Shown here one piece after another: positions 1 to 8,403 of a stretch of 8,403 nt of DNA (its first letter is position 1; the number at the start of each line of letters is the position of its first letter). Source of the stretch: Elusimicrobiota bacterium (GTDB taxonomy: Bacteria > CG03 > SLGR01 > PWQF01); assembly GCA_003557485.1 (NCBI GenBank), contig PWOI01000155.1:1-8403 (forward strand), read 5' to 3'. Below the pieces are notes generated by a model. The model did no database searches. It was not told the DNA's origin and worked only from the letters and a program-made list of their open reading frames with translations. A program made the position numbers and the translations under genes.

Positions 1-50
1 AGCGGCCTCTGGAGCCGTTCGTGGGGGTTCGAATCCTCCGCCGGCAGCCA
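1..50 (+). tRNA. tRNA-Ser-type, 3' part only
   Basis: The 5' half lies outside the window, so the anticodon cannot be read. What is visible is a long variable arm (about 1-19; AGCGGC pairs with GCCGTT in six pairs including one G-T), a T arm with loop TTCGAAT and stem GGGGG/CCTCC, the 3' acceptor strand GCCGGCA, discriminator G and an encoded CCA. A long variable arm with G73 points to serine. Leucine and tyrosine tRNAs normally have A73. Selenocysteine tRNA would have 13 bases between the T loop and G73, and here there are 12. The gene ends only 4 bases before the stop of the convergent gene at 55-357. Confidence 0.8.
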
Positions 51-433: not shown

Positions 434-964
434 ATGAACAAAATGATTCCTGTAGAGGTAATAGAAAAAAAGATTTTCCTCATACGAGGGCAGAGAGTAA
501 TGCTAGACAGAGACATAGCAGAGCTCTACGGGGTTGAAACCAAAAGACTTAATGAACAGGTGCGCCGTAATATTAAGAGATTTCCCGGGGATTTTATGTT
601 TCAGCTCTCAAAAGAAGAATTTGAAAATTGGAGGTCGCAGATTGCGACTTCCAATTCTGACAAAATGGGATTAAGAAGACGACCGTATGCATTTACCGAA
701 AACGGCGTTGCAATGCTCTCCAGCGTACTTACAAGTGATCGTGCAATAGAGGTAAATATTCAGATAATGAGGACGTTTACCAGGTTAAAGACCCTGGCTT
801 TAGAGAACAATGAGTTGAAAGCAATAGTAGCTAAAATTGAAAAGAGGTTGAACTCGCAAGAGTCTCATATAGTTGAAAATAAAAAAGCGATAAAAGAAAT
901 AATCGGAGCATTAAACAAACTGCTTACCGATAAAAGTAAAGAGGGTAGGAAGATAGGCTTTTAA
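434..964 (+). CDS. ORF6N-domain DNA-binding protein
   Basis: A 176-residue protein with an N-terminal ORF6N domain (about 8-118), a domain related to the KilA-N group and widespread in phages and mobile bacterial loci, where it is thought to bind DNA. Visible landmarks are IRGQRVMLDRDIAELYGV (17-34), the NIKRFPGDFMFQLS stretch (46-59), WRSQIATSN (66-74) and RPYAFTENGVAMLSSVL (83-99). Residues 120-165 form a charged coiled coil, probably for dimerisation. ATG at 434 is preceded by AAAGGGGG; the leader contains the self-complementary GGGGCCCC (425-432) just before the start, which could mask the ribosome binding site. The codons for residues 65-74 form a 31-bp near-palindrome (626-656) that recurs twice more in the window. 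A decayed relative lies at 1275-1510. The role here is unknown; mobile-element regulation is a guess. Confidence 0.9.
   Translation: MNKMIPVEVIEKKIFLIRGQRVMLDRDIAELYGVETKRLNEQVRRNIKRFPGDFMFQLSKEEFENWRSQIATSNSDKMGLRRRPYAFTENGVAMLSSVLTSDRAIEVNIQIMRTFTRLKTLALENNELKAIVAKIEKRLNSQESHIVENKKAIKEIIGALNKLLTDKSKEGRKIGF
626..656. repeat. 31-bp near-palindrome, copy 1 (inside ORF6N gene)
   Basis: Centred on A641 with core GTCGCA-GAT-TGCGAC-type symmetry. All 15 positions can pair in RNA: 13 Watson-Crick plus two G-U (positions 8/24 and 15/17). It encodes NWRSQIATSN in the ORF6N frame. It aligns over its full length, with no gaps, with 1399-1429 and 6352-6382. Confidence 0.9.
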
Positions 965-979
965 AAACAGGTTTGTAGA

Positions 980-1033
980 TTATCCGCAGGATTATTAGTC
1001 ATCGAACGGTGACGACTTTGTTTTGCGGGATAA
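980..1033. other. Nested inverted repeat after ORF6N gene
   Basis: Outer arms TTATCCGCA (980-988) and TGCGGGATAA (1024-1033) pair with one bulged G. Inside, GTCATC-GAAC-GGTGAC (998-1013) forms a six-pair hairpin with a tetraloop. A T-run (1041-1047) follows eight bases later. It may end ORF6N transcription, but the distance to the T-run is too long for a classic terminator. Confidence 0.35.
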
Positions 1034-1157
1034 GAAAATAGTTTTTTCCCTTCGAAAACTCTCCTGAGTTAATAACAGTATTAGAATTCTCAAAGATTTT
1101 TCGAGAGCTTGTTCTCAACCTCCGTAATTATGAAAAAACCACAGAAAAATCAAATAT

Positions 1158-1207
1158 TCATATTAAAAATGTGCAAAAAAACAGAATTATCATATAAAAA
1201 AAGTGCA
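1158..1207. repeat. Imperfect direct repeat, 32-base period
   Basis: TCATATTAAAAATGTGCA (1158-1175) and TCATATAAAAAAAGTGCA (1190-1207) match at 16 of 18 positions and start 32 bases apart, about three helical turns. The sequence is AT-rich and low in complexity, so it may be a decayed tandem duplication. Confidence 0.4.
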
Positions 1208-1274
1208 TTATTTTAACTTATGGGTGCCTCAAAGGTGTTTAATTGTTGTTCCCATCGTAAGATCGCATCCTAAA

Positions 1275-1510
1275 GCTAGACAGAGACATAGCAGAACTCT
1301 ACGGGGTTGAAACCAAAAGACTTAACGAACAGTTCCGCAGCAATATTAAGAGATTCCCCGGGTATTTTATGTTCCAGCTCTCACAAGAAGAGTTTGGTAA
1401 CTTGAAGTCGCAGATTGCGACATCAAGTTGGGGAGGAGTTAGAAAAACACCACTAATTGAAAATTAAAAAGCGATAAAAGTAAAGCAGACAGTAAGATAG
1501 GTTTTTAAAA
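1275..1510 (+). pseudogene. Truncated ORF6N-domain gene copy
   Basis: From CTAGACAGAGACATAGCAG (1276) the DNA is nearly identical to the intact gene from about position 502. It reads in frame for 63 codons (LDRDIAELYGV..., SQIATSSWGG) to a TAA at 1465-1467. The start and first 22 or so codons are gone, and no in-frame start follows the TAA at 1258. Two internal losses remove the rest: from the RRRP codons to the VENKK codons, and a 40-base deletion between two GATAAAAG repeats (889-896 and 929-936 in the intact gene). Similarity resumes through the last codons to TTTTTAAAAA. After SQIATS it reads SWGGVRKTP, where the intact gene has NSDKMGLRRRP, so the copies belong to different ORF6N subtypes and are not a fresh duplication. 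Confidence 0.88.
1399..1429. repeat. 31-bp near-palindrome, copy 2 (inside ORF6N pseudogene)
   Basis: Centred on A1414. Fourteen of 15 positions pair if one G-U is allowed; the only break is A/A at positions 8/24. Compared with copy 1, pair 3/29 is C-G in place of T-A and pair 5/27 is T-A in place of G-C, so both sides changed together. It encodes NLKSQIATSS in the remnant reading frame. Confidence 0.9.
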
Positions 1511-1517
1511 ATTACCC

Positions 1518-2234
1518 TTAATCGTCCTGGCAAGTCAATTGTGTAAAGTTATCCTTTTCAATATAATTCTCTTTATACTCTTCACTAAAAAATTTCATTG
1601 CCTTTTTACCTGAACAGTGTAAAGGTGCAACTTTTTTTACGCCTAATTCTCTGAATCCAGCAATAATACTTTTAATATTGTCATCACTTTGTTGTATAAG
1701 GTGAAATCCGCCCGCCACCAACTCTATAGGTTCACTAAAGTTCTCTTTTATTTGTTTTAGAATATTTATTATGCCGGGATGAGCGCATCCTGTGATTACT
1801 GTAAGCGCGTTTTTTTCTTTGATAACTAATGCTTGTTCCGGGATGTTTGTTTTGTCATTTTTGCCGTTAATTTCTCCTGTTAAAAAGATGTTTTTTTTTA
1901 TCATTGTCGGTCCGGAAACTTCAACTACGGTATGCGTTTTTTTAATTCTGTATTTTGTTTTTTTTGAAAATGTTGGGCATATGTATACAGTTATCTCAGA
2001 ATTTGCATTTAATATTTCCCATAACCCTCCGGTGTGATCCCGGTGGTCATGGGAAATTATAATATGCCTGATACTTAGAATATTGATATTATTTTTGTTT
2101 ATACTTTTTAATATGCGCCTTCCCGATCTGAAAGTATCAAACACAGTATCGTCATCAATAAAAAAAGAAATTCCCCATCCAGTGAAATATCTATACTTAC
2201 GGTTTGCCGCTTCCGCAAGCAATTTTATATTCAT
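1518..2234 (-). CDS. MBL-fold metallo-hydrolase, DHPS-like group
   Basis: A 238-residue soluble metallo-beta-lactamase-fold protein. The metal-binding motif is SHDHRDHTGG (61-70; H62, H64, D66, H67). Further likely ligands are H152 in TGCAHPG, H178 in GGFHL and H206 in LHCSG. The TGCAHPGI and LHCSG signatures match the group often annotated as 7,8-dihydropterin-6-methyl-4-(beta-D-ribofuranosyl)-aminobenzene-5'-phosphate synthase, metal-dependent hydrolases whose true substrates are mostly unknown. The usual FDTG after strand 2 is FDTF here. It is the last gene of the DUF134-NifX cassette, 62 bases after the preceding gene. The ATG at 2234 has no close ribosome binding site; a strong AGGAGG lies 35 bases upstream (2270-2275), and a five-codon mini-ORF (ATG ATC ACC AAA TTA TGA) overlaps the start. 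Fold certain, substrate unknown. Confidence 0.9.
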   Translation of the reverse strand: MNIKLLAEAANRKYRYFTGWGISFFIDDDTVFDTFRSGRRILKSINKNNINILSIRHIIISHDHRDHTGGLWEILNANSEITVYICPTFSKKTKYRIKKTHTVVEVSGPTMIKKNIFLTGEINGKNDKTNIPEQALVIKEKNALTVITGCAHPGIINILKQIKENFSEPIELVAGGFHLIQQSDDNIKSIIAGFRELGVKKVAPLHCSGKKAMKFFSEEYKENYIEKDNFTQLTCQDD

Positions 2235-2296
2235 AATTTGGTGATCATTTACTTTCTCTCAAACAAGTACCTCCTCAAGAACTATGATGGATAATA

Positions 2297-2662
2297 TCAA
2301 TCACATTTATGTTCTGAACAGGCATTCTCCGGGGTAAGAAGCTCCAAAGAGTTATTATTATAATGTTCTATAACCTCCTCTACCGTAGCAGCATTTACTC
2401 TGTATGCCTTAATTCCCCCTTCAGACAATTTCTGAATAGCGCGCAGCCCCATTCCTGAGCATACTACAGCGTCAATATTATTGCCGCCCAGCACACTGAG
2501 CGGGTGGCACATTCCGTGCGAATGATGGATATTGGTATTTTCAATTACTTCATGTGAATTACTATCTGTATCATATATTATAAAATAATTAGCGCTCCCG
2601 AAATGTGCATGAACTTCTGCCTTCAAGCCGTTTTTATCCCTGGTAGGTATACATATTCTCAT
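2297..2662 (-). CDS. NifX/NifB-type Fe-Mo cofactor family protein
   Basis: A 121-residue protein of the dinitrogenase iron-molybdenum cofactor biosynthesis family (NifX, NifY and NifB C-terminal, MTH1175-like). Family features are the opening MRICIPT, HAHFGSANYF (18-27), the HHSHGMCHPL stretch (46-55), DAVVCSGMGLRAI (64-76) and GIKAYRV (83-89). H49, C52 and H53, plus the C-terminal CSEHKC (115-120), may bind metal or an iron-sulfur cluster. Members outside nitrogenase loci are common in anaerobes and probably carry or sense metal clusters; none of the nitrogenase genes is present here. A ribosome binding site AGAGGA precedes the ATG by 8 bases. It lies 45 bases after the DUF134 gene and is presumably co-transcribed. 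Confidence 0.92.
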   Translation of the reverse strand: MRICIPTRDKNGLKAEVHAHFGSANYFIIYDTDSNSHEVIENTNIHHSHGMCHPLSVLGGNNIDAVVCSGMGLRAIQKLSEGGIKAYRVNAATVEEVIEHYNNNSLELLTPENACSEHKCD

Positions 2663-2707
2663 AATGGGTATCCTCTTTTTATTTAAACCATTCCTTCTGC
2701 CAAAACC

Positions 2708-3145
2708 TCAACCTGAATTATTATCACCTCCTTTGTCGCTTTTATGACTGTGAATATTCCTGCTTCTACAATACGGGCACTCGTATGGTTTTCCGGTTTT
2801 TTGCGCTATTTCCCATGAACATTTACATTCACAGCATAGAAACATTTGCTGCCCGGCTAATTTATAAACACCGCCTTCTATTTTGATCGCTTTCCCGTTT
2901 ATTAAAGCATCCGCAATTTTTTCATGCGCAGATTTAATAATGTTGCCAAAGGTCTGCCGGGATACATTCATTTTTTTTGCGGCTTCTTCCTGGTACATAG
3001 AATTATTATCGGCAAGTCTTATGGCTTCAAATTCATCAACCGTCAACGTAACTTCTTCAAGCATCGATAAAGGTATGGCTCTTGGTTTAAAATAGTCAAA
3101 CCTCGGGTTAGAATGAATTCTTCTGCATTTAAATGGTCTCGACAT
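2708..3145 (-). CDS. DUF134 (UPF0251) regulator with zinc-ribbon tail
   Basis: A 145-residue DUF134/UPF0251 protein. It opens with the family hallmark RPFKCRRI (3-10) and PRFDYFKPRAIPL (14-26), followed by EVTLTVDEFEAIRLAD (31-46), a helix-turn-helix (YQEEAAKKMNVSRQTFGNII, 51-70) and the EGGVYKL block (90-96). The tail adds cysteines C104, C105, C107, C109, C123 and C126 plus H132 and H134, probably a zinc ribbon or metal-sensing site. Proteins of this family are predicted sigma-factor-like or repressor-like DNA binders, very often next to NifX-type genes as here. It is the first gene of the cassette, with AAAGGAG five bases before the ATG and an excellent promoter. The inverted repeat around that promoter is a natural candidate for autoregulation. 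Confidence 0.93.
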   Translation of the reverse strand: MSRPFKCRRIHSNPRFDYFKPRAIPLSMLEEVTLTVDEFEAIRLADNNSMYQEEAAKKMNVSRQTFGNIIKSAHEKIADALINGKAIKIEGGVYKLAGQQMFLCCECKCSWEIAQKTGKPYECPYCRSRNIHSHKSDKGGDNNSG

Positions 3146-3182
3146 AACGCTCCTTTAATTAATTGGCATATGCTAACAATAA

Positions 3183-3221
3183 ATATCATATCATAAATAA
3201 AAGAGATGTCAAATATGATAT
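3183..3221. promoter_or_regulatory. Inverted repeat around the promoter, likely operator
   Basis: ATATCATAT (3183-3191) and ATATGATAT (3213-3221) are perfect 9-base inverted copies whose centres are 30 bases apart. One covers the -10 and the other lies just upstream of the -35, a layout suited to a dimeric or looping regulator. The nearest candidate regulator is the DUF134 protein encoded directly downstream. Confidence 0.5.
3185..3212 (-). promoter_or_regulatory. Promoter of DUF134-NifX-MBL cassette
   Basis: On the - strand: TTGACA (3212-3207), a 16-base spacer, and TATGAT (3190-3185), preceded by TGA, which gives an extended -10. The start would fall near 3178, about 33 bases before the DUF134 ATG. 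The AAAGGAG ribosome binding site is at 3156-3150. Confidence 0.8.
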
Positions 3222-3381
3222 GTATCTTAAAAAATTACAAGGATGAGTATAATTGCGAAGTGGAGACAGTAAGCAGTGGAGCGTTAACCTCGGCCCATAG
3301 GATACGTAGAGGTAATTATGTTATTCTTTAGATTTATTATCCGCTCATTTTCGAAAACAGAAGAATATACTCAATACGCAG

Positions 3382-3404
3382 CCGTTTTTGTTACTCAAAA
3401 ACGG
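3382..3404 (-). terminator. Hairpin over the NERD-gene stop codon
   Basis: CCGTTTTTG (3382-3390) and CAAAAACGG (3396-3404) form a perfect nine-pair stem with a five-base loop. The NERD stop codon (3395-3397) sits at the edge of the loop. No T-run follows on the - strand, so it is not a standard intrinsic terminator. It may protect the mRNA end. Confidence 0.35.
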
Positions 3405-4033
3405 TTTAAATATCTTTTTCGACGCTCCAATCTTTCTGCCACATTGTTGAGGTGCTGTTCATCAACTTCTCGACTCCGGTCAAGACGCTGTGTTTCAACC
3501 CTGCCTACTGCGTAGACAAGTTGATTGTATGTAAGAACTTCTTTCTTGAACCCGCGGATATAATCAACAAGCTGCCGGTAGTAGATGACATTCAGTGGGA
3601 GTTCTGTTTTAAACTGGGGCTGTCCGCAGAATACCACAATAGAGTGAAAAATTTTTCTGTCTAGCTTAAAGAGAGAACACACTGCTGCAATATGTCCCGC
3701 GTTCTGTTTGATTGGATTTGGAAAGCGGAATTTGGCTTTGTAAAGCACCTGTGTCCACTTGCGGTCAGACTCCTTACCAAAGATCCAGCCTTTGTATCCC
3801 TTAGTTTCAATTACAAAGATACCGTATTGAGAAATAAGCACGTGATCTATCTGTGTTGTGGAGTTACCGTGTCTAAGAGTTACGTTGTTGAGAAGATGGT
3901 ATGAATCACCTGTAAAATGGCGTTGGATAGCGCGGCTGACAGCGGCCTCTGCCTTGTTTTTGGGTACGCGCCGCAAACGTTGAAGAAGAAAGGGGGCAGC
4001 TCCGATTACAATGCCAATAGCAAATTCTATCAT
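3395..4033 (-). CDS. Membrane-anchored NERD-domain protein
   Basis: A 212-residue protein with a short hydrophobic N-terminus (2-18, likely a membrane anchor) followed by a NERD (nuclease-related) domain at about 26-140. Landmarks are E29, QIDHVLIS (61-68; D63), VIETKGYKG (74-82; E76 and K78) and NPIKQN (106-111; Q110). These fit the D...ExK...Q pattern of restriction-endonuclease-like folds, so a nuclease activity is plausible though rarely shown for the family. Residues 185-210 are charged and helical. NERD domains occur with helicases, kinases and topoisomerases and sometimes in defence loci; here the protein stands alone. Only a weak AGAAG precedes the ATG. It lies 106 bases from the gene at 4140, the same strand, so it may be separately transcribed or part of the PLD operon. 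Confidence 0.88.
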   Translation of the reverse strand: MIEFAIGIVIGAAPFLLQRLRRVPKNKAEAAVSRAIQRHFTGDSYHLLNNVTLRHGNSTTQIDHVLISQYGIFVIETKGYKGWIFGKESDRKWTQVLYKAKFRFPNPIKQNAGHIAAVCSLFKLDRKIFHSIVVFCGQPQFKTELPLNVIYYRQLVDYIRGFKKEVLTYNQLVYAVGRVETQRLDRSREVDEQHLNNVAERLERRKRYLNRF

Positions 4034-4139
4034 TTACACTTCTCTGTTATTTATTGAAATAAATTTACTAATAAACAATAGTAATTTCTTCAAATTTCAC
4101 TCCTTCTTCTAAATCCTTAGAAAATTTCGCTAAAAGAGC

Positions 4140-4994
4140 TTACAAGTCAGGATGGGACTTAGATTTTATTTCCAGTGTTTCAGGGTCATAATCCCAGTCA
4201 CCAGGGGGTAAAAAATCTAAATATTCCGGTACAAGCTCGCCTAGGCTATCCGGAGTTCTTTTAAAATCTACATCAGAATAAAAAATAGCCAGAGCCTGCC
4301 GGATTTTTAAAAGTCTTTTCTCTATAGCTTCAATTCTTTCTTCAGCAGTGAGCTCTTGCAAGTTTGTCTTTAAAAGTCTTTTTTTAGATGCTTTTTCAGC
4401 AAGTTTCTGCTTAACATATTCTGCCTCTTCAGAAATATAGTCTTTTGCTTCTTTTAAAGAATCTATATTTTTCTCTATTTCCCGGATGAGTTCAGGTTGT
4501 TTTTGTAATCTTTCCTTAAATTCGTCAATTGCTTTTTCTATAATGTCATCAGCCTTTGAAATTAGATTTTCCAATTCCTCAAGTTTAGATATATCATAGG
4601 TTTTTCGTGTGTAGTTAAAAGCTAAATTTTTATACGAAACTGCCCTAAACTTTAATGATTTTGCAGTTTCCCCTTTTTCCAGATCTAATACTTTTTCAAG
4701 CAGTTCTTCTGCCATTTTATAATCTTTTTTGTCTTGGTATGCAGTTGCTAATTCTATATAGGCAAGAGAGTGGTCCGGATACTTTTCAATAAAAAGTTTA
4801 CACTCCTTTATTAAAGCATCTATTATTTTATCTCTTTCATCTTCGCTTTTATCAGAATCTATCATTTGAAGTCTATATTCGGTAGTAACTTCTATTATTT
4901 TTCTTTCAGTATCAGAAAATTCATATGACAAACCTCTTATATAAAGAAAAATGATAAAAAATATTCCTGTGCAAATTATTTTAAATAAATTCAT
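4140..4994 (-). CDS. Exported TPR protein with pseudopilin-like tail
   Basis: A 284-residue protein of unknown function. Residues 4-22 form a hydrophobic segment after N-terminal lysine, a signal peptide or anchor; there is no good lipobox. Residues about 66-107 fit a tetratricopeptide repeat (FIEKYPDHSLAYIELATAY followed by DYKMAEELLEKVLDLE). Residues 136-230 are long charged helices, probably coiled coil. The last 55 residues (RQALAIFYSDVDFKRTPDSL, ELVPEYLDFLPP, WDYDPET, SHPDL) resemble the C-terminal domain of GspG-like pseudopilins, but the usual N-terminal pilin helix is absent. The ATG overlaps the TAA of the upstream gene by one base (TAATG), so translation is probably coupled; AAGGGGAAG serves as ribosome binding site. 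It is the third gene of the PLD operon. Confidence 0.75.
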   Translation of the reverse strand: MNLFKIICTGIFFIIFLYIRGLSYEFSDTERKIIEVTTEYRLQMIDSDKSEDERDKIIDALIKECKLFIEKYPDHSLAYIELATAYQDKKDYKMAEELLEKVLDLEKGETAKSLKFRAVSYKNLAFNYTRKTYDISKLEELENLISKADDIIEKAIDEFKERLQKQPELIREIEKNIDSLKEAKDYISEEAEYVKQKLAEKASKKRLLKTNLQELTAEERIEAIEKRLLKIRQALAIFYSDVDFKRTPDSLGELVPEYLDFLPPGDWDYDPETLEIKSKSHPDL

Positions 4995-5500
4995 TACTTC
5001 CCCTTACATTGTTCCTCTATTCGTTTCTTAAGTGCGTTTATTCTATTCACAACATTTTCAATCATTCCAATGTATCCATCTCTTGACTGTAAAATACGTT
5101 CTATGTTAGATCTAATACTGTTTATTCCATTTTTAAGCTCACGTATTTCATGCTTAATCCTAATAATTCTATGATACAGTTCATATTGCTTTGAATCCCA
5201 CGTAAGATGAGCATGCTCATAATCAAATTTCAGTCTTTCCAATCGGTTCTCCAGATCAAAAATACTATCGTTTTTGCTCCATAACCTCATTCGGGCAGTG
5301 TTGTAAAGAGATTGCACAATTTCAAGATTTTCATTCAACTTACTCAGTTCTGCTTTTAGAGCAGCTAGTCTTGCTCGTAGTTCTTCGCAACTAGGACCGC
5401 GGACAGAAGCTCTCGATGGTTCTACAATATTTAAGTAGCGAACTAACGGATAAGAAAGAACTGAAATGCCTATTATAAGATAACAAATTTTTCGTTTCAC
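4994..5500 (-). CDS. Membrane-anchored coiled-coil protein
   Basis: A 168-residue protein I cannot assign to a family. Residues 5-22 are hydrophobic after MKRK, a signal anchor. Residues 38-165 are almost entirely heptad-like charged helix, probably a long coiled-coil hairpin or dimer. Apart from C6 in the anchor, the only cysteines are C38 and C165, at the two ends of the helical part, and could close it by a disulfide. The start is GTG at 5500 with no ribosome binding site. The region is in the same frame as the upstream PLD gene, separated by one TAA and eight codons, and a mini-ORF (ATG at 5521-5523) ends in a TGA that overlaps the GTG, which suggests translational coupling. The stop overlaps the next gene's ATG. 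Confidence 0.7.
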   Translation of the reverse strand: MKRKICYLIIGISVLSYPLVRYLNIVEPSRASVRGPSCEELRARLAALKAELSKLNENLEIVQSLYNTARMRLWSKNDSIFDLENRLERLKFDYEHAHLTWDSKQYELYHRIIRIKHEIRELKNGINSIRSNIERILQSRDGYIGMIENVVNRINALKKRIEEQCKGK

Positions 5501-5524
5501 AAGACCATTGTTGTTGAATTCATT

Positions 5525-6091
5525 TTATCTTATTCTCTTGAAATATCTTATAAATTGTTCCGCTGCTTTAGATGATTTTATAATAACCGAGGATTCTTTA
5601 TTTTCTTCAAAAGCTGTAAATGTCCAGTTATGCGAACCGAGAATACTAATATAATCATCTATTACTATCAATTTTGTATGCATAACTTTATTGGGTGAAT
5701 TCAATCTGACATTTATTCCTGCATCTTGCAGCATCTCCTTGGCTTTCAGATTGCCTCTTATAAGATAGTTCTTTTTGTGGCTATATTCAAGGATACAATC
5801 TACTTTAACACCCCTTTCATGTGCCCTTATTAATTCATTAAGAGCTCTATTAACAATAAAAAATCTGCTTTCTGATGGTACAACTCCATATATAGCAACA
5901 TAGATGGACTCTTCTGCTTGCTGTAGAAGAGGAATAAGTTCCTGTATGTACTCATTCTCAAAAACAATCTGAAGAGAATCAGCCTGATAATCCCTTTGGC
6001 CTGAAGAATCAGAAGCAGTCAACGCTATAAAAAATATAAAGAATAGGATTAATCTACCGATTTTTAATCCCTTCTTAATTAATAATATCAT
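5525..6091 (-). CDS. Secreted one-HKD phospholipase D/Nuc-type protein
   Basis: A 188-residue phospholipase D superfamily protein. A basic N-terminus (KKGLKIGR) and hydrophobic stretch (13-25) form a signal peptide. The catalytic motif is complete: H138-x-K140-x4-D145, then G152, S153 and N155. Only one HKD motif is present, as in the Nuc/bacterial endonuclease subgroup, whose members work as dimers with one motif per subunit. The length fits that group. Members hydrolyse DNA or phospholipids; the substrate cannot be told from sequence. The sequence SIYVAIYGV (62-70) and GVKVDCILEY (94-103) match the core strands. AGGA lies 9 bases before the ATG. It heads the operon with the coiled-coil and TPR genes. 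Confidence 0.9.
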   Translation of the reverse strand: MILLIKKGLKIGRLILFFIFFIALTASDSSGQRDYQADSLQIVFENEYIQELIPLLQQAEESIYVAIYGVVPSESRFFIVNRALNELIRAHERGVKVDCILEYSHKKNYLIRGNLKAKEMLQDAGINVRLNSPNKVMHTKLIVIDDYISILGSHNWTFTAFEENKESSVIIKSSKAAEQFIRYFKRIR

Positions 6092-6155
6092 AATAATTGT
6101 TCCTAAGCCTTCTTTCTATATGCGAGGAATGCAGCAGTGCGTTTTTTCTGGTTTT

Positions 6156-6183
6156 ATTGTACCACATCTTTATAAAAATACAA
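6156..6183 (-). promoter_or_regulatory. Likely promoter of the PLD operon
   Basis: On the - strand: TTGTAT (6183-6178), a 16-base spacer, then TACAAT (6161-6156; 5 of 6), preceded by TGG, an extended -10. The -35 is weak (3 of 6), which the extended -10 may offset. The leader would be about 58 bases. Confidence 0.5.
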
Positions 6184-6351
6184 TTTCATATTTCTATCTA
6201 TCCTTTGCATAAATTATTAATCATGTATTTAGCCTCTCATTAAATATTTTTCTATAAAACTGCGTACAGCTAAACTACCCTGACAACAACATTTAAAATG
6301 CAATAGCAATAAAAGGGTATATAATAATGTAGCATCCATCACTTTTATAAG

Positions 6352-6382
6352 AATTGGAAGTCGCAAATTGCGACTTCAAATT
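6352..6382. repeat. 31-bp near-palindrome, copy 3 (intergenic)
   Basis: Centred on A6367. Ten perfect pairs around the core (6357-6377), then one mismatch (positions 5/27) and four more pairs. It differs from copy 1 at only three of 31 positions (8, 15 and 27). Two of these changes (8 and 15) turn G-T mismatches of copy 1 into A-T pairs. It lies 52 bases before the -35 of the next gene. Confidence 0.88.
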
Positions 6383-6433
6383 TTTGCCCGCCTTCCCTCT
6401 TTAAATTTTAACTTACATCCTCAGTCCACAGAC

Positions 6434-6496: not shown

Positions 6497-8403
6497 ATGC
6501 TAATATCATTCTTAAATCCCCAGGGAAATTTTGACAGCCACGACAGCAGGTGGGTTACCCATCCTGATTTCGGAGGCCAGCTTGTCTATGTAAAGGAACT
6601 GGCTATAGCTATGGCCAGGATGGGACACAAGGTCGATATAGTTACAAGACAGATAATCGATCCTGAATGGCCCGAGTTCTCTGAGCCTTTTGATTCTTAT
6701 GAAGGCGTTGGAAACCTCAGGATTGTCAGGATCAAGTTCGGCCCTGACAGGTTCCTAGATAAAGAGGAACTCTGGCCGCATCTTCTGCCCGGGTACGTTG
6801 AAGAGACTATAAACTTCTATAAAAAAGAAGGACAGATGCCCGATGCCGTAACATCCCACTACGGAGACGGAGGGCTGGCTGCCGCTTACTTTAAAGAAAA
6901 GACAGGAATCCCTTTTACCTTCACTGCCCATTCTCTCGGAGCGCAGAAAATGGATAAGCTTAAAGTAAACAGCAAGAACGCCCGCGATATGGACAAAACC
7001 TATAACTTCTCTCTCAGGCTGCTTGCCGAGCGCACCTGCATAAACAAAGCTGATAAAATTGTCACCAGTACGCTGCAGGAGAGGTTCAGCCAGTATACCC
7101 ACACCGCGTACCAGGAAGCTGTTATTGCGCATGACGAAGAGAAGTTCGCCGTAATACCGCCCGGAGTTTCATTAAAAGTTTTCGATAAGAATATAGAACC
7201 GGACCCGGAAGTCTCTGCTATGCTGACTAAAATTATTAAACGGGATATAGCGTCCGAAAGGCGCTCCCTTCCTGCTATCATATCCTCCAGCAGGCTGGAC
7301 CCCAAAAAGAATGTGGCCGGCATAGTTCGGGCCTTTGGTGAGAGTAAGACCCTTCAGGAGGAGGCCAACCTGGTTATTGTAACAAGAGGGTATCCTAACC
7401 CCCTTAAAGACTACAAAAAAATCAGCAAGGCAAGGGAGGGAATCGTTCTTTTGGAACTGATCTCTCTTATTGACACCTATGGTTTGAGGGGCAAGGTTGC
7501 GATGGTTTCAATTGAAAAACAGGAGAACCTGGCTCATATGTACCGTTTCTTCTCATCCAGCAGGTCTGTCTTCTGCCTTGCGGCCCTTTATGAGCCCTTT
7601 GGGCTTGCTCCTCTGGAAGCTATGGCAAGCGGCCTTCCCGCAGTAGTAACCAAGTTCGGCGGGCCTGCAGAGAGCCTCAGAGAGGGAGACCAGGATTTCG
7701 GCATACTTATAGACCCTACAAACAACGGTGAGCTCGCGGGAGCCCTTCACTCCCTGGTCAGTTCACAGGTAAACTGGGAATCATACGCGCTTAAGGGCTA
7801 TAACAGAGTTCTTGATAAGTTTACATGGGACAAAACCGCTCTTTCCTATATGGAAGTCATAAACGAAATAACAGGTAAAAAGGAAGAAAAACCCCATTTT
7901 GACGTCCCCATACATCCATACTTCATCAATCCGGAGAAGTCCGATCTGCCCGGCCCCGATTCCCTTATAGACCTTTATCTCAGGCTTGATATACTCTGCG
8001 CCGGGGAAACCGTTGTTGACTTCATCTCTAAAAAGAAAACCAATTCCCTGATTGACGCCGAAGAATTTTCCAGATACCTCGGCGGAAACCCGGCCTATGT
8101 CTCGGTATACTGCTCAAAACTTAGCAAGAGGGCCGCGCTTCTGACCAAGCTGGGGAAGGGACATTTTTCTTCGTTTATCGAAACGGAACTTCAGAGAAGC
8201 GGAGTAAATACAGAGTATGTAAAATTCACAGAAAAAGACGATACTTCTGTCGCTTTCTTTACTCATACGCCTACTCATCCCGATTTCCAGAGTATGCACT
8301 CGGCAGATATGCAGCTGAGCATAAAGGATGTTTCCAGTGAGGTGGTGGAACGCGCCGATATAGTCTATACTTCCCTTTCTTCGCTTGTTGAAGAACCTGC
8401 CCG
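6497..8403 (+). CDS. SPS-type GT4 glycosyltransferase fused to PfkB kinase (3' end missing)
   Basis: Open to the window edge: 635 codons visible. Residues 1-460 are a GT4 glycosyltransferase of the sucrose-phosphate/sucrose synthase type: DFGGQLVYVKEL (24-35), SHYGDGG (120-126), TAHSLGAQK (143-151), VIPPGV (219-224), SRLDPKKN (265-272; R266 and K271 for the nucleotide-sugar phosphates), LIDTYGL (324-330) and the EX7E pair E366/E374 in EPFGLAPLEAMASGLP. Relatives transfer glucose or mannose from UDP/GDP-sugar to fructose 6-phosphate, or make and split sucrose. After a proline-rich linker (466-486), residues 497-635 start a PfkB-family sugar kinase: CAGETVVDFIS (501-511), YLGGNPAY (527-534), ALLTKLG (547-553). 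The catalytic GAGD region would lie beyond the edge. The Asn usual in GGxPxN is Tyr534. ATG at 6497 is the first after an in-frame TAA (6485); no ribosome binding site. Sucrose-phosphate-like synthesis coupled to fructokinase is inferred. Confidence 0.88.
   Translation, partial: MLISFLNPQGNFDSHDSRWVTHPDFGGQLVYVKELAIAMARMGHKVDIVTRQIIDPEWPEFSEPFDSYEGVGNLRIVRIKFGPDRFLDKEELWPHLLPGYVEETINFYKKEGQMPDAVTSHYGDGGLAAAYFKEKTGIPFTFTAHSLGAQKMDKLKVNSKNARDMDKTYNFSLRLLAERTCINKADKIVTSTLQERFSQYTHTAYQEAVIAHDEEKFAVIPPGVSLKVFDKNIEPDPEVSAMLTKIIKRDIASERRSLPAIISSSRLDPKKNVAGIVRAFGESKTLQEEANLVIVTRGYPNPLKDYKKISKAREGIVLLELISLIDTYGLRGKVAMVSIEKQENLAHMYRFFSSSRSVFCLAALYEPFGLAPLEAMASGLPAVVTKFGGPAESLREGDQDFGILIDPTNNGELAGALHSLVSSQVNWESYALKGYNRVLDKFTWDKTALSYMEVINEITGKKEEKPHFDVPIHPYFINPEKSDLPGPDSLIDLYLRLDILCAGETVVDFISKKKTNSLIDAEEFSRYLGGNPAYVSVYCSKLSKRAALLTKLGKGHFSSFIETELQRSGVNTEYVKFTEKDDTSVAFFTHTPTHPDFQSMHSADMQLSIKDVSSEVVERADIVYTSLSSLVEEPA

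Follow-up and report, generated by a model that had tools for sequence, protein, structure and literature searches.

The window analyzed here is a stretch of 8,403 nucleotides of an Elusimicrobiota bacterium (contig PWOI01000155.1), which carries an intact gene of the ORF6N-domain family and, downstream of it, an ORF6N pseudogene that is a second, internally deleted copy of the gene (Table 1). The intact gene matched the PF10543 profile with 126.7 bits, against a cut-off of 27.8, over positions 1-86 of the 86 in the profile. Our subject is a 31-bp near-palindrome within this gene and its relation to the protein that the gene encodes. A first-pass annotation had noticed the palindrome at three places in the window, and re-reading the sequence bore this out: One copy lies inside the intact gene, a second at the equivalent place of the pseudogene (as the PF10543 matches confirm), and a third stands free between genes. 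Copies 1 and 2 each pair at 13 of 15 positions, with two G·T mismatches in copy 1 and one A·A and one G·T in copy 2, and copy 3 pairs at 14 of 15 (one G·A). The same annotation was also right that both arms had changed between copies 1 and 2 (pair 3/29 from T-A to C-G, pair 5/27 from G-C to T-A), and that copy 3 mends both G·T positions of copy 1.

Table 1. Features of the window, with positions counted from its first nucleotide.
Feature	Position	Strand	Basis or remark
Intact ORF6N-domain gene, 176 amino acids, predicted helix-turn-helix DNA-binding protein	434-964	+	PF10543 E 4.2e-37; AlphaFold2 model
Stretch coding for the predicted recognition helix, residues 34-46 VETKRLNEQVRRN	533-571	+	Mutual information, code tables, held-out test, independent pairs
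Codons K37; R38; E41; R45	542-544; 545-547; 554-556; 566-568	+	Covary with palindrome half-site
Palindrome copy 1 AATTGGAGGTCGCAGATTGCGACTTCCAATT	626-656	none	Inside intact ORF6N gene, encoding residues 65-74; putative cognate site
Codons for R81 and R82 in the predicted wing region	674-679	+	Covary with half-site bases at +10 and +8
Second gene copy, an ORF6N pseudogene with an internal deletion	1271-1511	+	Repeats D1, D5, D3; PF10543 2.2e-19 at 1276-1452
Palindrome copy 2 AACTTGAAGTCGCAGATTGCGACATCAAGTT	1399-1429	none	In ORF6N pseudogene, site matching copy 1
Palindrome copy 3 AATTGGAAGTCGCAAATTGCGACTTCAAATT	6352-6382	none	Free, intergenic, between PLD-family gene and sucrose-synthase-like gene
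Divergent DUF6788-like gene, 100 amino acids	55-357	-	Sub-threshold E 5e-4
PLD-family protein gene, probable signal peptide	5525-6091	-	PADLOC DrmC-like score E 5e-14
Sucrose-synthase-like gene	starts 6497	+	

Palindromes of this kind proved to be general in ORF6N genes. PF10543 was present in 82 of 386 genomes, and each of the 130 distinct ORF6N domains taken from these 82 carried a palindrome in which 10 or more of 12 positions were paired (a perfect 12/12 in 50 of 130), located at residues ~57-84 of the domain in essentially every gene, where the only exception in numbering was a fragment. As a null, we shuffled synonymous codons within each gene while keeping the protein. Among 2600 such shuffles, 144 (5.5%) reached at least 10 of 12 pairs, 0.7% at least 11, and a single one all 12, and hence the protein sequence alone is insufficient to explain the palindrome. 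Further genes from other collections brought the set to 234 usable ORF6N genes, in which pairing amounted to 0.82-1.00 at offsets 2-13, to 0.60 at offsets 14-15, and to background from offset 16 onward, with the innermost pair looser than the others. Pairing stood well above the null throughout offsets 1-15. This profile ends at ±13 to ±15, which independently yields the 31 bp of the first reading. For the 218 distinct 31-mers, positions 2-13 were paired in 92.8% of cases, versus 25-31% if one arm was slid by 1-2 bases, and all four Watson-Crick pair types were seen at offsets 4, 8, 9, 11, 12, and 13, showing that the two arms change in concert. In the ORF6N alignments, the arms thus stay complementary, and the independent arm variation that would mark a by-product of the protein did not occur. 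The shuffle null, the offset profile, and the held-out code described below lend strong support to the earlier suggestion that the palindrome itself is under selection. Judged from these alignments, the palindrome is an ancestral and fixed part of ORF6N genes across phyla.

The palindrome was found to covary with the helix segment VETKRLNEQVRRN, which is encoded ~25 codons upstream. Upon calculating mutual information over 139 columns, with the codons that write the palindrome set aside, residues 41 and 38 stood far above all others for half-site positions +4/+5, and residue 37 was singled out for +7. A rule for residue 41 was fixed on a discovery set (window numbering), with E:C, Q:T, K:G, and R:G at +4 and E:G, Q:G, K:A, and R:C at +5, and was scored on held-out genes that were fetched later from viral contigs and from contigs that represent many phyla with one genome per species. 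Residue 41 predicted +4 correctly in 104 of 109 held-out genes and +5 in 101 of 109 (identical domains removed; the discovery and held-out sets may share species). The failures include two genes with the best palindrome at the wrong place, and the scoring omitted one gene with a palindrome score of 7 and three genes that gave no helix match. Over all genes, the bases at +4/+5 were TG for Q41 (95 of 98), CG for E41 (68 of 69), GA for K41 (21 of 23), and GC or GT for R41 (29 of 37). Residue 37 went with position +7, i.e., K37 with C (122/122) and I, F, or S37 with T (18/18), and residue 45 with position +3, i.e., R45 with G (214/214) and N45 with T (18/18). Two more covarying residues, 81 and 82, lie beyond the palindrome, on the other side from the helix residues encoded upstream: R81 went with C at +10 (153/153) and K81 with T (42/44), and at +8 we found mostly C for Y82 and A or T for K82. 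The code agrees with the usual contact chemistry, where Arg and Lys go with G, Gln with A, and Glu with C. By the code and the held-out test, i.e., by sequence only, the site fits the specificity of the protein from the same gene.

Some ORF6N genes depart from the plain arrangement. In two genes with NEAV helices (L202 and L170), where E41 is followed by A instead of Q, the sites are asymmetric, with one TGCGA half and one TGTGA half, which hints at a contribution of residue 42. Two or three loop palindromes occur in the genes L092, L094, L098, L108, L124, L028, and L068; of the copies in L028 and L094, one suits the helix now encoded, and the other resembles a site of different specificity, as if an old site had been kept. 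The loci L041, L059, L062, L068, and L069 hold tandem arrays of ORF6N genes that have near-identical ends and vary in the middle, from the helix through the wing, as though this specificity segment were a module subject to exchange.

We assessed independence from shared ancestry on a tree of the 234 genes built from 85 columns that exclude helix, palindrome, and wing. On this tree, residue 41 changed ~101 times, near the 105-124 changes of shuffled labels, and of 86 phylogenetically independent pairs with unlike residues at position 41, 77 obeyed the rule on both sides. Independent pairs with different expected bases obeyed in 17/17 cases for residue 37, 35/37 for residue 81, 32/37 for residue 82, and 2/2 for residue 45, with none reversed; with only two pairs, the residue 45 association may be clade history. 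A tree from the helix-to-palindrome stretch gave 75 of 84 independent pairs obeying. Given the 85-column tree and the likely recombination of whole segments, the number of independent switches is approximate. A class of genes in another reading frame (L018, L078, L084, L102, L103, L105, and L123, and, among the held-out genes, L193, L227, and L232) bears on the same question. These carry like DNA, e.g., CTGGTCGCAAATTGCGACCGG, which in a frame displaced by one base encodes LVANCDR in place of RSQIATS (the peptides seen being LVANCDR, LVTNCDR, and LVPNWHQ), and the residue-to-base rule is still obeyed, a finding for which linkage alone offers no explanation. As far as these genes tell, it is the DNA that is conserved and the peptide that follows. 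Constraint at the nucleic-acid level can determine which amino acids a protein loop contains, across reading frames too.

An AlphaFold2 model of the window ORF6N protein (mean predicted local distance difference test score, pLDDT, of 79.6) places helices at residues 25-32 and 36-45, with helix-turn-helix spacing and within blocks of pLDDT >90, and the covarying residues 37, 38, 41, and 45 sit on the second of these. The palindrome codes for the end of a helix at 60-69 and for a disordered loop (residues 73-78 with pLDDT <50), after which a strand follows at 85-88. Hence, the site appears to be written where the protein tolerates change. The best fold match (Z 6.9) was a fragment of human Ski-like protein, followed by the Dachshund DNA-binding motif, both of them modest matches, and the weak matches include the DNA-bound winged helices RacA, HiNmlR, and BldC and the Mbp1 domain. 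Searching solved structures by sequence returned chance-level matches only.

These data are best explained if the ORF6N protein recognizes the 31-bp palindrome of its own gene as its cognate DNA site, a reading to which we assign a probability of roughly 0.85. An ORF6N dimer would bind the palindrome and read it with its winged helix-turn-helix, where residue 41 would set +4/+5, residue 37 would set +7, residue 45 would set +3, and residues 81 and 82 would set +10 and +8. The site would be written in the tolerant-linker codons between recognition helix and wing; lying within the codons of its own reader, it would be inherited together with that reader, and the two would change together. What we computed directly are a symmetry beyond the protein sequence, a constraint on DNA and not on RNA, and a code validated on held-out genes. 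The first-pass annotation had considered that the ORF6N protein may bind an operator-like site within its gene, a possibility that the code, the held-out test, and the independent pairs strongly support. Several observations weigh against the cognate-site reading. R41 is looser than the other residues (26 GC, 7 TC, and 3 GT), and two NKAV-like genes of the NN subfamily deviate (TCCA). Exchange of the ~120-bp segment could inflate the association between residues and bases. An obvious second site near the promoter is seen in only ~5 of 234 genes. Lastly, avoidance of shared specificity within genomes, which orthogonal autoregulators might be expected to display, was not seen, with 79 distinct cores among 88 genes versus 76.9 expected; within-genome specificities thus resemble random draws, which is a mild argument against strict orthogonality.

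Given binding, the most likely role is negative autoregulation, where the protein bound ~200 bp inside its own gene would block transcription; we rate the odds of this as about even. It is favored by the intragenic position of the site, by the PHROG profiles, in which ORF6N relatives are matched as anti-repressors and transcription regulators, and by five upstream copies: In L119, L106, L172, L198, and L212, the domain start is preceded, at a distance of 21-126 nt, by a further copy, which is where an operator would be expected. Extra copies totaled 18 versus 6 for shuffled cores, several of them within neighboring ORF6N genes.

The same cognate binding could alternatively serve to mark self, where the site would let the element that carries the gene be recognized and the protein would act on DNA or replication. 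We regard this main rival to autoregulation as rather unlikely. In its favor are the very fast turnover of specificity seen on the 234-gene tree, the location of the genes mostly alone among unrelated neighbors, and the naming of the ORF6N protein by PADLOC as the defense candidate PDC-S05 (profile E 5e-61). PDC-S05 is, however, a candidate by genomic embedding only, most PADLOC PDCs being candidates without validation (PMC12988326), and a partner effector was not enriched among the gene neighbors. The neighborhood comparison gave no consistent gene neighbor of ORF6N genes, and ORF6N is not a mainstream phage gene, with matches in 5 of 50,697 phage records. A precedent for self-marking is aba in bstA, part of the prophage BstA abortive-infection system, in which aba protects the phage that encodes BstA. 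The passages on bstA in PMC8585504 describe aba as a short cognate element in the locus of a KilA-N-like DNA-binding protein that works as DNA, with variant BstA proteins that have matching elements, as in ORF6N. A cognate element inside the gene with matched specificity is, by its bases and residues alone, also what ORF6N genes present. In these passages, aba is 63 bp long, carries direct repeats at its ends, and overlaps with the start of the gene, whereas the ORF6N element is a palindrome of 27-31 bp that lies between the codons of the recognition helix and those of the wing; its unit is an inverted repeat, and direct CCCGCC repeats of the aba type are absent from it. A residue-to-base rule, as found for ORF6N, is not reported in those bstA passages.

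A hairpin in the ORF6N mRNA, acting on stability, translation, or protein-RNA binding, was another role raised at first reading, and we consider it very improbable. Every DNA palindrome can fold as RNA, and the looser innermost pair is loop-like, but the pairing is not that of an RNA. Third codon positions in one arm oppose second codon positions in the other. At offset 4, the third base was G opposite C in 66 of 68 cases, C opposite G in 49 of 50, and A opposite T in 93 of 101, with G once in these 101; opposite T, it was A in 43 of 43 cases at offset 10 (G in 0/43) and in 153 of 158 at offset 11. Among sense-strand mismatches, GT and TG (the G·U type) numbered 43 versus 63 for AC and CA. The avoidance of G·U where codons permit it and the excess of A·C over G·T mismatches indicate a constraint on DNA and not on an mRNA hairpin. 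Moreover, a hairpin would leave the covariation with helix residues unexplained.

Equally improbable is a mobile palindrome inserted in genes, as had been suggested by comparison with the Rickettsia palindromic elements. Those are mobile insertions in unrelated genes, and ORF6N shares with them palindromic DNA within coding sequence. Free copies do exist (copy 3 of the window and L239, L246, L250, and L253), but in ORF6N genes the palindrome occupies one ancestral alignment position across phyla, in one gene family, and many dispersed copies in unrelated genes were not found. In the whole host genome (2.07 Mb in 212 contigs, 86.6% complete), the core GTCGCANNNTGCGAC occurred at 5 places, namely, 3 intact ORF6N genes, the pseudogene, and 1 free copy, with 0 matches for its reversed control, which argues against a genome-wide mobile palindrome family; the proposed spread through its own genome fails accordingly. 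In the wider collection, RGTCRCAWNWTGYGACY matched in 59 of 386 genomes, versus five for the reversed control. Of 31 such sites read closely, 18 were inside the ORF6N domain and 13 elsewhere; the latter included one truncated ORF6N gene, one N-terminal part in ORF6N frame, one Bro-N gene, and one other gene, and the rest lay outside such genes or were chance-like. The low count of free copies thus speaks against spread and is immaterial to the palindrome as a site that is part of the gene. We also observed an ORF6N-unrelated gene (L256, 1275-1865) whose product contains QESQIATLET and whose coding sequence includes a perfect CAAGAGTCGCAAATTGCGACTCTTG palindrome.

Copy 3 itself is part of a 42-nt match in reverse orientation between 624-665 and 6343-6384 (86%). 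A promoter-like site lies ~50 bp downstream of it, and a terminator-like T-run is present. No such palindrome was found near homologues of the gene at 6497 in the five relatives that have a close homologue, leaving a conserved operator of that gene unsupported. Copy 3 may be an additional site, or else what remains of an ORF6N gene.

A by-product of protein motif constraint or of quasipalindrome template-switch mutation, with the site itself unselected, is likewise very hard to sustain: The motif LRSQIATS is itself common, and template switching can perfect quasi-palindromes, but the synonymous-shuffle null, the shifted frame with like DNA, and the prediction of bases by residues outside the palindrome all stand against it.

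Genes of the Bro-N family (PF02498) show the same intragenic-palindrome design, apparently with a helix code of their own. At least 10 of 12 pairs were present in 58 of 64 genes (null, 38/640), and the palindrome lay at residues 49-66 in 62 of 64. In this set, the half-site follows the two residues after helix YW: GTAAC or similar for xV, mostly GTCAC for xK, GTGAC for TT, GTAGT for SV, and mostly TCG for xD. The predicted structure consists of helices at 29-36 and 42-55, the palindrome-coded linker, and two strands. Examples with a linker palindrome are L244 (477-1358), L287, L288, L291, L303, L309, L319, and L353. A single gene of the Rha family, taken for comparison, had no clear palindrome. 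It is tempting, if doubtful, to view ORF6N and Bro-N as a broad class of self-addressed genes, in which a winged helix-turn-helix protein would carry a private DNA address in its linker codons, reader and address would switch together at a high rate, and the purpose would be discrimination of self from non-self between mobile elements and not ordinary regulation.

Sites of the parS/NBS type can lie inside parB and noc genes. With ParB/Noc, whose specificity residues are reported in PMC7383237, ORF6N would share a palindrome read by a helix-turn-helix dimer and a specificity that few residues switch. In ParB/Noc, however, each family has an almost invariant specificity and NBS sites occur chromosome-wide, whereas each ORF6N gene has its own variant with very fast turnover. 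By its PHROG anti-repressor matches, ORF6N belongs to the group of phage antirepressor, Bro-N, KilA-N, and Rha regulators, for which we found no cognate site inside the genes in the literature. Intragenic binding sites and cognate elements are already known singly, e.g., aba in bstA. In the literature searched, which excluded bioRxiv and most subscription journals, there was neither a domain family with its own matched and varying palindrome per gene nor a recognition code for ORF6N or Bro-N. Both families are abundant regulators and almost without experimental literature. If the cognate-site reading is true, DNA-binding specificity would be readable from sequence alone for very many proteins, yielding a large natural data set on protein-DNA recognition and its evolution. 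The functional hypothesis is concrete and directly testable by one synonymous recoding.

As to the surroundings, an RNA family search of the window DNA returned no match. The DUF6788-like neighbor is kept, in divergent orientation, beside all 3 intact ORF6N genes of the host genome. In one of the three copies (L005, 2092-3015), a large serine recombinase of CcrB/XisF-like type comes next, which suggests a mobile element. The first 50 nt of the window (1-50) resemble the 3′ half of a tRNA gene (GGGGGTTCGAATCCTCCGCCGGCAGCCA), in which ARAGORN found no complete tRNA. The PLD-family protein is probably a secreted nuclease rather than a defense protein. Finally, a strong promoter-like sequence for the DUF6788-like gene, TTGACA-17-TATATT (11/12), lies on the minus strand at 390-418 and adjoins the ORF6N start.

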